From Microbacterium foliorum (lineage in GTDB: Bacteria; Actinomycetota; Actinomycetes; Actinomycetales; Microbacteriaceae), in assembly GCF_006385575.1 (NCBI RefSeq), contig NZ_CP041040.1, positions 62,001 to 126,000 of the forward strand: 64,000 bases of DNA, given 5' to 3'. Each line of letters opens with the position of its first letter. The first letter of the stretch is position 1. Both the position numbers and the translations under genes were made by a program. This document shows, one piece after another, positions 4,094-53,915 of this stretch. The notes beneath the pieces were generated by a model. The model searched no databases and was not told where the DNA came from. It worked only from the letters and a program-made list of their open reading frames with translations.

Positions 4094-4169
4094 GAGACCC
4101 GCGACGTCGTCCGAGACCCATGCCCATGAGAGAGGTCTCGGGCGCGAAAGCGGGTCTCACCGATGAACG
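4094..4169. repeat. Four-unit 19-bp direct/inverted element, core GAGACC (element 1)
   Basis: Core GAGACC occurs at 4094 and 4113 and its inverse GGTCTC at 4134 and 4153, giving start-to-start steps of 19, 21 and 19 bp. The first direct copy is part of a perfect 10-bp arm GCCCGAGACC (4090-4099) pairing with 4134-4143. It lies between two convergent genes, where an RNA hairpin could end transcription from both sides, but the strict 19-bp pitch is not needed for that. Confidence 0.7.
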
Positions 4170-5899: not shown

Positions 5900-5974
5900 C
5901 TCGGGAGGAGGACTGCCTCTCGGGAGGACAACTGCGCGCCGAGGCTCCTCCCGAAGGAGAGTTCTCCTCCCGAG
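5900..5974. repeat. Four-unit 19-bp direct/inverted element, core CTCGGGAGGA (element 2)
   Basis: CTCGGGAGGA occurs at 5900 and 5919, and the inverse TCCTCCCGA at 5946 and 5965, with steps of 19, 27 and 19 bp. It is flanked by a 15-bp direct repeat CCCGAGGCGGCGGGC at 5873-5887 and 5969-5983. The element lies between the convergent cold-shock and HAD genes, close to the HAD stop at 5991. Confidence 0.7.
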
Positions 5975-11958: not shown

Positions 11959-14901
11959 ATGCTGACGCTCCTCGCCGTGTTCCTCCTCGGGTCGATCCTG
12001 ATGCCCGTCCTGGTGCGCTGGCTGGGGTCTCAGGCATTCGCCATCGCGGCTCTCATTCCCGCCGCGGCATTCATCCACGCCCTCGTACTCACCCCTCAGG
12101 TGCTCGACGGACCGACGCCCTTCGTCTCGGTCGCGTGGATTCCGCAGCTCGGCCTGAACCTGTCCATGAACATGGACGTTCTCGGCTGGGTCCTCACACT
12201 GATCGTCACCGGTGTCGGCGCCCTCGTGCTGTTGTACTGCCGGTGGTACTTCCACGACGACTCCGCGGGTATCGGCCAGTTCGCCGGGGTTCTGCTCGGC
12301 TTCGCCGGTGCGATGTACGGCCTCGTCCTGACCGACGACCTGGTCATGCTCGTCATGTTCTGGGAGGTGACGAGCATCCTCTCGTACCTCCTCATCGGCC
12401 ACTACCGACGGCGAGCGGCCAGCCGACGAGCCGCCCTCCAAGCGCTCCTGGTCACCACGCTCGGCGGACTCGTGATGTTCGTCGGAGTCGTGCTGCTGGT
12501 CGTCGATGCCGGCACCTCGAGCATCCGCGAGATCCTCGAGATCGCGCCCACAGGGGCGATCGTCGATGCCGCCGTGGTCATGCTGCTCGTCGGTGCCATC
12601 AGCAAGTCCGCGATCTTCCCGTTCCACTTCTGGCTTCCCGGTGCGATGGCGGCACCCACCCCAGTCAGCGCCTACCTGCACGCCGCGGCGATGGTGAAGG
12701 CGGGCATCTACCTGATCGCGCGATTCGCCCCGATCTTCGCGTTCACCGGTCCGTGGCGGCCGATCATCATCTCGCTGGGAATCGTGACGATGCTGCTCGG
12801 CGGCATCCAGGCCCTGCGAGAGACCGACCTCAAGCGCATCCTCGCCTTCGGCACGGTCAGCCAGCTCGGGTTCTTCTCGATCGTGATCGGCTACGGCACG
12901 CAGGCGAGCGCCCTGGCCGGTCTCGCACTCGTGATCGCGCACGCGCTGTTCAAATCGGCACTGTTCCTCATCGTCGGTGTGATCGACCGGCAGCTGTCGA
13001 CCCGAGACATCGATGAGCTGAGCGGCGTGGGGCGTCAGGCGCCGGTCATGGCCACTGCGGCATTCATCTCCATCGCGTCGATGGCGGGCATCGCGCCGAC
13101 CCTCGGATTCGTCGCGAAGGAGTCCACTCTCACGGCCCTCCTCGATGACGCGCTGCACGGGTCTCCGTGGGGACTCGTCGCCATCATCGGCGTCAGCGTG
13201 GGATCCATTCTCACTGCGGCATATGGCATCCGCTTCCTCTGGGGCGCCTTCTGGACCAAGCGCGACGCAGCAGGCGATCGCCTGCCGGACACGATGTGGC
13301 CCGATCCGCCGGTCGGGTTCCTCTCGGCGCCGATCATCCTCGCCGGCCTCACGCTCGCGGCCGGCATAGGTGCCCCGGCTCTCGACGTCGCTCTGCAGGG
13401 ATATGCGCTCACCGCCACGCCCGGCCTCGACGCAGAAGGGGTCCCCGCCGAGGGGCCGGGGCACCTCGCGCTCTGGCATGGCCTCGAGCCTGCTCTCGGC
13501 ATCTCGATCCTGTCGATCCTGCTCGGCGCCGCGGTCTTCCTTCTCACTCTGCGCACGGGGTGGGATCGCAAGGCGCGGTTGATCCGCTTCACCGCGGCGG
13601 ACGTCTACTACCTGGTCATGCGCGGCGTCGACCGGCTCTCGGTGCTGAGCACGACGCTCACGCAGCGAGGCTCGCTTCCGGTCTACGTCGGCACGATCTT
13701 CGTGGTCTTCGTCGCCGCCGAGATCACGGCTCTGGTCGCCAGCGACATCGACCGCTTCCAGCTCTCGGCCTGGCACACTCCCACGCAGCTCGTGGTCGCG
13801 CCCTTGATGGCCGCCGCCGGCGTCATGGCCGTGCGGGCGCAGAAGAGGTACACCGGCGTCGTGCTCGTCTCGATCACGGGCCTCGGCATGGTGGCGCTCT
13901 TCGCCACGAGCGGTGCGCCCGACCTCGCGCTCACGCAGATTCTCATCGAGACCGTGACGATGGTGACCTTCGCGCTCGTGCTGCGCCGCCTGCCCGCACG
14001 GATGGGCGAGCACAACGCGTCCGTCGGTCGCATCCCCCGAGCGCTGCTGGGAGTCGGAGTCGGACTCACGATGGCCCTGGTCGCGATCGTGGCGACGCAG
14101 TCGCGAGTCGCCGATCCGATCTCCGCAGTGTTCCCCGAGATCGCGTACGAGATCGGCCACGGCAAGAACGTCGTGAACGTGGCGCTCGTCGACCTGCGCG
14201 GCTGGGACACGATGGGCGAGCTCTCGGTGCTCGTGCTCGCCGCCACCGGCGTCGCATCGCTCGTTTTCGTCACGCATCGCGCCGACATGCTGTCGGCGAC
14301 CAAGACGCTCCCCAAGGCCCGTCGCCGCCGGACCCTCAGCCGCCCGCTGGTCGAGACGACCGAGGGCGTGCGGTTCCAGACGGACGAGAACGAGAGCAGC
14401 CCCCGCGCCTGGCTCGTCGGCGGCCCGAAGATGAAGCCCGAGAACAGGTCGATCCTGCTCGAGGTGATCGTCCGCATCCTCTTCCACACGATCATCGTCG
14501 TGTCGATCTTCCTGCTGTTCTCCGGTCACAACCTTCCGGGCGGCGGCTTCGCAGGCGGACTCGTCGCGGGCATGGCGCTCGTCATGCGCTACGTCGCCGG
14601 CGGACGCTGGGAGCTCGGCGCGGCCGCGCCCACGGACGCCGGCCGACTGCTGGGTGCCGGTCTGATCCTCGCGGTCGGCACCGCCGTCGTGCCGCTGTTC
14701 TTCGGCATGGCCCCGCTCACCAGCACGTTCTGGGAGTGGGATATCCCCTGCATCGGCCACATGGAGTTCGTGACCTCGACCATCTTCGACGTCGGTGTGT
14801 ACCTCGTCGTGATCGGACTCGTGCTCGACGTGCTGCGCAGCCTCGGTGCCGAGGTCGACCGTCAGGCGCAGGAGTTCCGCGAGCGGGGGGTGAGCATCTG
14901 A
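11959..14901 (+). CDS. mrpA: Na+/H+ antiporter subunit A with fused subunit B (MrpA/MrpB)
   Basis: A 980-residue inner-membrane protein. Residues about 1-500 are the NuoL/MrpA proton-translocating module, with the conserved TM5 glutamate Glu136 (FWEVTSI) and the lysine/histidine segment HALFKSALF. The middle is the MrpA-specific region. The last 160 residues are an MrpB domain recognised by GHNLPGGGFAGG, and no separate mrpB exists, so A and B are fused as in many actinobacteria. With C-G it forms a multi-subunit Na+/H+ antiporter for pH and salt tolerance. AGGAG precedes the ATG. Its stop overlaps the next start. Confidence 0.93.
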   Translation: MLTLLAVFLLGSILMPVLVRWLGSQAFAIAALIPAAAFIHALVLTPQVLDGPTPFVSVAWIPQLGLNLSMNMDVLGWVLTLIVTGVGALVLLYCRWYFHDDSAGIGQFAGVLLGFAGAMYGLVLTDDLVMLVMFWEVTSILSYLLIGHYRRRAASRRAALQALLVTTLGGLVMFVGVVLLVVDAGTSSIREILEIAPTGAIVDAAVVMLLVGAISKSAIFPFHFWLPGAMAAPTPVSAYLHAAAMVKAGIYLIARFAPIFAFTGPWRPIIISLGIVTMLLGGIQALRETDLKRILAFGTVSQLGFFSIVIGYGTQASALAGLALVIAHALFKSALFLIVGVIDRQLSTRDIDELSGVGRQAPVMATAAFISIASMAGIAPTLGFVAKESTLTALLDDALHGSPWGLVAIIGVSVGSILTAAYGIRFLWGAFWTKRDAAGDRLPDTMWPDPPVGFLSAPIILAGLTLAAGIGAPALDVALQGYALTATPGLDAEGVPAEGPGHLALWHGLEPALGISILSILLGAAVFLLTLRTGWDRKARLIRFTAADVYYLVMRGVDRLSVLSTTLTQRGSLPVYVGTIFVVFVAAEITALVASDIDRFQLSAWHTPTQLVVAPLMAAAGVMAVRAQKRYTGVVLVSITGLGMVALFATSGAPDLALTQILIETVTMVTFALVLRRLPARMGEHNASVGRIPRALLGVGVGLTMALVAIVATQSRVADPISAVFPEIAYEIGHGKNVVNVALVDLRGWDTMGELSVLVLAATGVASLVFVTHRADMLSATKTLPKARRRRTLSRPLVETTEGVRFQTDENESSPRAWLVGGPKMKPENRSILLEVIVRILFHTIIVVSIFLLFSGHNLPGGGFAGGLVAGMALVMRYVAGGRWELGAAAPTDAGRLLGAGLILAVGTAVVPLFFGMAPLTSTFWEWDIPCIGHMEFVTSTIFDVGVYLVVIGLVLDVLRSLGAEVDRQAQEFRERGVSI

Positions 14902-42360: not shown

Positions 42361-42433
42361 GATGCAGGTCGAGCTCACAGATGCATGCTCAGAACGGCCC
42401 GTGCGGCATGCATCGGTGATCTGCGCATGCAGG
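42361..42433. repeat. Four-unit 19-bp direct/inverted element, core GATGCATGC (element 3)
   Basis: Direct copies GATGCAGGT at 42361 and GATGCATGC at 42380; inverted copies GCATGCATC at 42406 and GCATGCAGG at 42425. Steps are 19, 26 and 19 bp. It lies between the Pr6Pr stop and the moxR start, upstream of the MoxR operon. The inner pair is a perfect 9-bp stem. Confidence 0.6.
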
Positions 42434-48247: not shown

Positions 48248-48432
48248 CCGACGCCGGGCCTGACCGACGCCGGCCGGATGGGGTCGTCCGCTTGCAGGAC
48301 CGACGCACGGATGCAGGACGAGAAGGCGGATCGGTCCTGCAGACGTGCCTCGGTCCTGCAGACCGATCGGGTGGGATCAGGTCGGATCGGGGCCCCGACG
48401 CGCCCCCCCGACGCGCCCGGCGACGCGCCCAA
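48242..48432. repeat. Two further short tandem repeats around element 4
   Basis: GCCTGACCGACGCCGG is repeated in tandem at 48242-48257 and 48258-48273; the first copy contains the MFS stop codon. Three 12-bp units beginning CGACGCGCCC follow at 48397, 48409 and 48421. No gene is seen in 48248-48488. Confidence 0.6.
48293..48368. repeat. Four-unit 19-bp direct/inverted element, core TGCAGGAC (element 4)
   Basis: TGCAGGAC occurs at 48293 and 48312, and its inverse GTCCTGCA at 48334 and 48353. The steps are 19, 22 and 19 bp, so the whole 76 bp divides into four contiguous 19-bp units. The outer arms TGCAGGACCGA and TCGGTCCTGCA pair perfectly over 11 bp. It sits downstream of the SoxR-type MFS gene and about 130 bp before the flavoenzyme gene, in a same-strand gap. 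Confidence 0.75.
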
Positions 48433-53794: not shown

Positions 53795-53824
53795 AGTGCC
53801 CGGACCCTCAGGGGTCCGGGCACT
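53795..53824 (+). terminator. Terminator of the osmoprotectant importer operon
   Basis: AGTGCCCGGACCC (53795-53807) pairs with GGGTCCGGGCACT (53812-53824), 4-nt loop, followed by TCTGTGTGCTTT. Confidence 0.82.
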
Positions 53825-53839
53825 TCTGTGTGCTTTCGT

Positions 53840-53915
53840 GAGACCGCGGTCCGTGGACGAGACCCACGTCTAGGGCGTGGGTCTCGTGCGGGATGGGGGG
53901 TCTCGCGGGAGGGGG
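53840..53915. repeat. Four-unit 19-bp direct/inverted element, core GAGACC (element 5)
   Basis: GAGACC at 53840 and 53859, GGTCTC at 53880 and 53899: steps 19, 21 and 19 bp, identical to element 1 and with the same core. The inner copies form a 12-bp stem (53857-53868 with 53876-53887). It lies between convergent genes, after the importer terminator and before the AI-2E gene stop. Confidence 0.75.

Follow-up and report, generated by a model that had tools for sequence, protein, structure and literature searches.

Elements of the window

The window analysed is a 64,000-nucleotide stretch of the Microbacterium foliorum genome (contig NZ_CP041040.1, positions 62,001 to 126,000), and coordinates below refer to this window unless genome positions are indicated. 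The flagged element (48293..48360) belongs to the TGCAGG family and is composed of four copies of TGCAGGAC/GTCCTGCA in the order direct, direct, inverted, inverted. Two copies of TGCAGGAC lie on the plus strand (48293..48300 and 48312..48319), and two lie on the minus strand (48334..48341 and 48353..48360), where the plus strand reads GTCCTGCA. The original prediction described this element as four contiguous 19-mers, which is incorrect given that the central step is 22 bp (steps 19-22-19).

All five sites reported in the window were found in place, each with a 19-bp step in both halves. GAGACC-family elements of 65 bp are present at 4094..4158 and 53840..53904, both with steps of 19-21-19. 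An CTCGGGAGGA-family element with steps of 19-27-19 occupies 5900..5974, and a GATGCA(GG/TGC) element at 42361..42433 was assigned to the TGCAGG family. Four of the five copies sit just past a stop codon, and two (4094 and 53840) are located between convergent genes. In the related genome G001, the place orthologous to 4094 carries no element, the copy orthologous to 5900 has GGCGGA in place of GGAGGA in most cores, and the 42361 site holds two tandem copies with the core GATGCATGCTCAGA.

A strict test was used that accepts cores of at least 6 bp arranged as direct-direct-inverted-inverted, with equal pitch in both halves and pitches of 10-60 bp. It recovered four sets from the window (4094, 5901, 48293 and 53840), all with a pitch of 19, and no others, while 20 order-3 Markov shuffles of the window together yielded three sets, with no instance of pitch 19. 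Site 42361 was not recovered, as the cores differ between its outer copies (GATGCAGG/GCATGCAGG) and inner copies (GATGCATGC/GCATGCATC), although a 19-bp spacing is seen there for both GATGCA and GCATGCA. In 864 kb of the genome (24% of the 3.62-Mb contig), 15 sets occur at 19 bp versus seven at the 50 other pitches combined, and two shuffled copies of these 864 kb gave seven sets with none at 19. The excess at 19 bp therefore withstands the shuffled control.

The further copies sought elsewhere in the genome are also present. GAGACC-N13-GAGACC occurs 30 times and TGCAGG-N13-TGCAGG 12 times, with no occurrence of either reversed pattern. The core families of this genome are GAGACC, CTCGGGAGGA, TGCAGG/GATGCATGC, TGGCTGGCTGA and GTGCGCTTCCGAAGTCC, each with a 19-bp unit. 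The claim of a variable core at constant pitch is thus confirmed, and the core varies between sites because several families coexist. Counting of 19-bp units with five mismatches was uninformative, as the reversed control gave 68 clusters versus 44 for TGGCTG and 36 versus 36 for GTGCGCTT. The number of units also varies, with up to five 19-bp cores in one arm at positions 12671-12795 of locus L018 (G000:352671-352795, where G000 is the genome of this study) and a further case at locus L217 of genome G140. Among relatives, GAGACC-N13-GAGACC has at least one copy in 38 of 58 genomes, and the reversed pattern at most one per genome. High counts (up to 44) are found within the same genus, compared with 0 to 2 in other families.

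Size, fold and covariation

A GTDB scan for GAGACC sets with a centre of 10-30 bp returned at least 120 stretches, and 94 of those listed come from Microbacterium. The 130 elements in the listed stretches comprise 77 of 64-66 bp, 51 of 76 bp and two others (61 and 68 bp), with 21 lengths allowed. The centre thus has two sizes, with length classes that differ by 11 bp, or about one turn of DNA.

The 76-bp class (51 elements) exhibits covariation, with 249 two-sided cells versus 119 after shuffling and 78-98 with slid partners, and it folds as one hairpin in which an internal loop separates an outer from an inner helix. When partners were shuffled within strains, covariation in this class (28 elements) was evident in the middle (0.82 versus 0.60) and hardly so in the spacers (0.65 versus 0.61). 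The 65-bp class (20 elements) covaries in the spacers (0.70 versus 0.58) and slightly in the middle (0.55 versus 0.49), and the 66-bp class (eight elements) revealed no covariation. Compensatory changes among aligned copies demonstrate that a long predicted hairpin is kept in the 76-bp class.

A double-hairpin RNA had been offered as one of three explanations for the geometry. This proposal is not supported by a covarying fold made up of a single long hairpin interrupted by an internal loop, and no sign of RNA action was seen. G-T mismatches (31 cells) are about as frequent as A-C mismatches (33 cells), and a G.U preference cannot reveal an RNA role here because the palindrome has no fixed strand.

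A family of putative nuclease genes adjoins the elements

In both M. foliorum and genome G014, one gene is bordered by clusters of GAGACC elements. In the products of this partner family, an AbiEi-type DNA-binding domain at the N terminus is followed by a DUF559/Vsr-like (PD-(D/E)XK) nuclease domain at the C terminus. Pfam places DUF559 in five other genes of the genome, which encode AbiEi-type domains as well; the sixth DUF559 gene is L125. Among seven proteins scanned, PF13338 (the AbiEi-type N-terminal domain) scores above the cut-off in three, below it in three more and is absent from one. PF04480 (DUF559) scores above the cut-off in five of the seven and has no match in the two GAGACC-type proteins, and the C-terminal domain also matches PF18741, below the cut-off. 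The GAGACC partner protein has no Pfam match, and its membership in the family follows from its alignment with other members and from the invariant Asp residues that they share. Two Asp residues and one Gly are conserved in 73 of 73 proteins, and one Glu in 72 of 73. The DUF559/MTES domain match and the conserved acidic residues are features of Vsr-like PD-(D/E)XK enzymes, and they make cutting activity a prediction for this family. A PDB sequence search matched no solved structures, and an AlphaFold prediction from four sequences reached a pLDDT of 43 and was left unused.

A profile built from the six known family genes of this genome and the G014 protein detected no convincing seventh member in the genome (next match E = 0.003). 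Five of the six genes adjoin pitch-19 repeats with five different cores, which are of the GAGACC, CTCGGGAGGA, TGGCTG, GTGCGCTTCC and CGGACGGATCACGGA types, and the sixth has a long flanking palindrome with no direct repeats. At locus L123 (G000:1178262-1179113), CACTTCGGGGGCCGACGCGCCAGATGCCGA-type palindromes are present on both sides of the gene with no 19-bp direct repeat. No element was seen in the flanks of L125, which counts against the mobile-element interpretation developed below.

Gene-flank association in the genus and order

The partner family was found in all 29 genomes of the genus searched (this one included), with 1 to 10 matches each. The 73 loci assembled comprise the six of this genome from which the hypothesis arose, 27 supplied with the search output and a further 40 chosen, not strictly in order, from among the higher-ranked matches listed. 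The 450 bp to the left of each gene were compared with the 450 bp to the right, against 480 control ORFs of the same genus. A palindrome common to the left and right flanks exceeds the control 95th percentile at 66 of the 73 loci and the 99th at 59 (p = 7e-37), and the median score is 62 for gene loci versus 25 for control ORFs. With the exclusion of L179, whose flank contains a run of N, 65 of 72 loci exceed the 95th percentile (5% expected) and 58 of 72 exceed the 99th. Seven of the 73 loci miss the 95% limit, including two (L128 and L166) where elements are visible by eye. As read from these flanks, family genes are demonstrably enclosed on both sides by elements of their own family.

An earlier version of this test used the flanks of other loci as the control, some of them orthologous and high-scoring, and placed none of 33 loci above the 99th percentile. 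When ORFs replaced these flanks as the control, with scoring unchanged, 19 of the 33 passed 95% and nine passed 99%; stricter scoring and 40 more loci then gave the 73-locus result. The partner family was also detected in 66 of 79 genomes of the order. Among 25 loci taken from other families in that order, 21 clear the 95% threshold used above, for which the control ORFs come from this genus. The gene-flanking palindromes of loci L279 and L283 (family f5) share GTTGATCACGTTCAGTGGGT, perhaps a long-lived core.

The best internal pitch over 10-40 bp in the shared elements (n = 65) is 19 at 28 loci and 18 at 14, with other values represented by at most three loci each, and shuffled sequence has no such peak at 18/19. 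A first exact-pitch test on 33 gene loci had returned eight at 19, two at 18 and one at 15, while 330 random stretches returned 17 at 19. The 23 of 65 gene-flanking elements that lack an 18/19 pitch count against the mobile-element interpretation. One protein sub-clade (L151-L154, L180 and L184) has long flanking palindromes that contain inner CGGCGTGTCG or GGATGCCGCG-like motifs and lack direct repeats at 18/19 bp.

Pitch follows the protein tree. With labels assigned by a mechanical rule, pitch changes between 18 and 19 seven times on the tree of 73 proteins versus a shuffled mean of 11.8 (2 of 500 as low), and the states 18, 19 and none change 19 times versus 29.3 (0 of 500 as low). Elements are more alike where protein identity is higher (Spearman 0.185; no value as high in 500 permutations). 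This correlation is strong only in the six pairs above 0.70 identity, and therefore cores diverge fast.

Dispersed copies and the orphan TGCAGG family

Four of the five dispersed families match the elements that flank their own gene. Two of the 15 strict sets in the 864 kb are the flank of the GAGACC gene itself, and 13 are dispersed. The best match is a gene flank of the same genome for 12 of the 15 sets and for 10 of the 13 dispersed ones; this genome contributes 6 of the 73 loci. The other three sets match G001 loci best. Two of these are TGCAGG elements that modestly match L164 of G001, with scores of 35 (the flagged element) and 47, and one is a GTGCGC element that scores 74 with L134 of G001 versus 67 with its own L130. 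The G001 gene L166, from the clade of the CTCGGGAGGA gene of this genome, has GGGCGGA in most flank cores where M. foliorum has GGGAGGA. GGCGGA likewise predominates among the cores of two dispersed G001 copies at orthologous sites.

The TGCAGG family is the exception, as no gene with this core was found in this genome. The flanks of L164 in G001 contain TGCATGC/TGCAGG, and the same locus holds the TGGCTG gene in M. foliorum. Neighbouring sequences at this locus align at 88-91%, but the L164 gene aligns with the TGGCTG gene over only 304 bp at 77%. Genome G167 lacks a gene at this locus but retains three of the four cores of one TGCATGC element. Specificity at this locus therefore differs between species. 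The core switch may reflect cassette replacement or a change in place, and the low gene alignment would point to replacement. These observations support the view that the 48293 element is an orphan left behind after gene loss or a change of core.

Gain and loss of elements

Comparisons with close relatives reveal differences in element content. Among four TGCAGG-type copies compared with G167, those at genome positions 275590 and 432770 are present, that at 104361 is partly present, and that at 110293 is absent. None of the three TGGCTG copies compared (genome positions 274363, 281418 and 316255) occurs as such in G167. At genome position 335078, G001 has three copies, M. foliorum has one, and G167 has none. 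For the 53840 locus, 15 loci were fetched and 11 sequences were aligned; the element is present in M. foliorum, G167 and G140 and is absent from 8 of the 10 relatives. A terminator-like hairpin at 53795-53825, which adjoins the 53840 element, is kept in all 11 sequences aligned.

The TGGCTG copy near genome position 316,255 lies inside kdpB (TIGR01497, E = 3.6e-178), within an extra in-frame segment of 117 bp, or 39 codons, that is absent from kdpB of G167 and G001. Judged from this alignment, insertion in the lineage of M. foliorum would be the simpler reading. The extra segment is longer than the element itself (~74 bp), which counts against the mobile-element interpretation. No target-site duplication was read at the compared sites, where the exact edges of insertion are not readable. 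At the level of sequence comparison, the gain and loss of elements between related genomes is established.

In genomes G167, G001 and G149 (loci L231, L233 and L238), the gap orthologous to that of the 48293 element contains another palindrome, GTTCACAACTCAG...CTGAGTTGTGAAC. Such intergenic gaps may be hot spots for unrelated families of elements.

Comparison with known systems

The elements and genes resemble the REPIN/RAYT system. As set out in the text of PMC3116915, the dispersed small palindromes of that system have conserved ends and a variable, compensating middle, form tandem clusters, and fall into several families per genome that each lie beside their own single-copy gene. The elements studied here are likewise dispersed palindromic doublets with a compensatory middle, a feature that within strains is clear in the 76-bp class, slight in the 65-bp class and absent from the 66-bp class, and element families lie beside their own gene. 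The systems differ in the partner, which here is an AbiEi-like and Vsr-like protein, and in the two direct units per arm spaced at 19 or 18 bp. An association with a RAYT-type transposase had been suggested; a search of the whole genome with PF01797, the Y1 (HUH) tyrosine transposase/RAYT family, gave no matches at E 0.001, with 5 of 14 control genomes positive, and a different protein occupies the partner role. Because no Y1 transposase was found, the elements cannot be placed within REPIN/RAYT. In addition, GTAG is found within 15 bp of a GAGACC-element end, on either strand, at only 5 of 252 ends (3/150 plus 2/102).

CGTC-tagged REPs are also short palindromic repeats, and this class apparently lacks a dedicated transposase according to the main text of PMC3733652. 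They differ in shape and are reported from other phyla, with Actinobacteria unnamed in that main text (PMC3733652). At 60 of 252 GAGACC-element ends, CGTC is present on either strand at a distance of up to 15 bp, a raw count without a chance control.

Regarding the partner proteins, AbiEi and Rv2827c share the PF13338 N-terminal domain, and AbiE binds paired inverted repeats with one monomer per repeat and gaps of 3 or 13 bp, as described in the text of PMC7319586. These gaps differ by 10 bp, which resembles the 11-bp size difference of our elements. Distinct from AbiE, the genes examined here add a nuclease domain and sit between two elements, and the elements occur genome-wide. The C-terminal domain resembles Vsr/DUF559 through its matches to PF04480 and, below the cut-off, PF18741. 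Vsr repairs T:G mismatches beside a methylase. Here the nuclease domain is instead fused to a DNA-binding domain and encoded by a gene with repeats on either side. Limited and incomplete literature searches found no description of this pairing of gene family and repeat.

Alternative explanations

The possibility that the proteins are homing- or defence-type nucleases, with elements that serve as recognition marks or protective decoys and spread by break repair rather than transposition, draws on the Vsr-like domain with acidic residues conserved in all 73 proteins, on the behaviour of the gene and its flanks as a cassette, and on the relative that keeps most of one element without the gene. 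Searches with one family member as the query gave no phage match and two plasmid matches, and we regard this explanation as unlikely. A second proposal is that AbiEi-type proteins autoregulate from the flanking copies and that the dispersed copies form an immobile regulon of operators. Precedent exists in the autoregulation of AbiEi and Rv2827c via inverted repeats in their own promoters, as described in the text of PMC7319586, and elements are indeed present on the 5ˊ side of family genes. However, elements flank the gene on both sides, the 4094 and 53840 copies lie between convergent genes, and presence varies among near relatives. A fixed operator is also unlikely because one copy resides inside kdpB, and overall we consider this proposal improbable.

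It is more doubtful still that the elements are intrinsic terminators or mRNA 3ˊ-end hairpins of unusual shape, even though a stop codon closely precedes four of the five copies in the window and the 76-bp class has a well-folding, covarying palindrome. The 53840 element as a sole terminator is refuted by the separate hairpin found in M. foliorum and all 10 relatives, eight of which lack the element. Another element lies inside kdpB, and terminators leave the cognate gene, the 18/19-bp direct repeats and the two sizes unexplained. Finally, chance formation by tandem duplication and fold-back repair, with no protein involved, could account for arrays in which the number of 19-bp units varies (genome position 352671; G140), but it is scarcely credible given that unrelated cores share 19 or 18 bp, that slippage offers no reason for such a pitch, and that pitch follows the protein tree.

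A proposed mobile system

We conclude that these elements are probably miniature, non-autonomous mobile palindromes of several families, most of which are paired with a gene for a putative AbiEi-like and DUF559/Vsr-like nuclease. The REP-like mobile element with co-evolving halves was among the three options of the original prediction, and it offers the best fit to the dispersed copies, their presence and absence between species, the kdpB copy, the compensatory changes and the flanked cognate gene. The option of a dimer-of-dimers protein site is probably also right with respect to predicted binding, as suggested by the AbiEi-type domain and the two centre sizes 11 bp apart.

By analogy with AbiE, each 19-bp unit of the direct, direct, inverted, inverted array would most likely correspond to the footprint of one AbiEi domain, such that four protomers assemble on the duplex. 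Each protein presumably reads its own core, which would be why the core differs between families, while geometry would remain constant because the protein architecture is shared, in keeping with the agreement between pitch and the protein tree. Presumably, the nuclease introduces cuts or nicks in its cognate elements and thereby drives their copying, much as RAYTs are thought to move REPINs. Loss of the gene, or a change in its core, would leave earlier elements behind as orphans. By analogy, the data are best read as a mobile system that resembles REPIN/RAYT but relies on an unrelated nuclease, which would be responsible for moving the elements.

With somewhat less assurance, we lean towards the broader view that these are representatives of a new trans-mobilised class of miniature elements common in Actinomycetes, in which an AbiEi and Vsr-like protein would recognise and spread its own tetrapartite palindrome of 19/18-bp pitch. 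Such a class would be convergent with REPIN/RAYT through an unrelated enzyme, and its switchable core would leave relics.

Palindromic repeats that lack a known mover remain puzzling, and a widespread gene family here gains a likely substrate that can be read from the DNA on either side of the gene. The family may thus offer dozens of natural protein-target pairs for decoding how AbiEi-type domains read DNA, and a testable case of miniature elements driven by a nuclease rather than a transposase.
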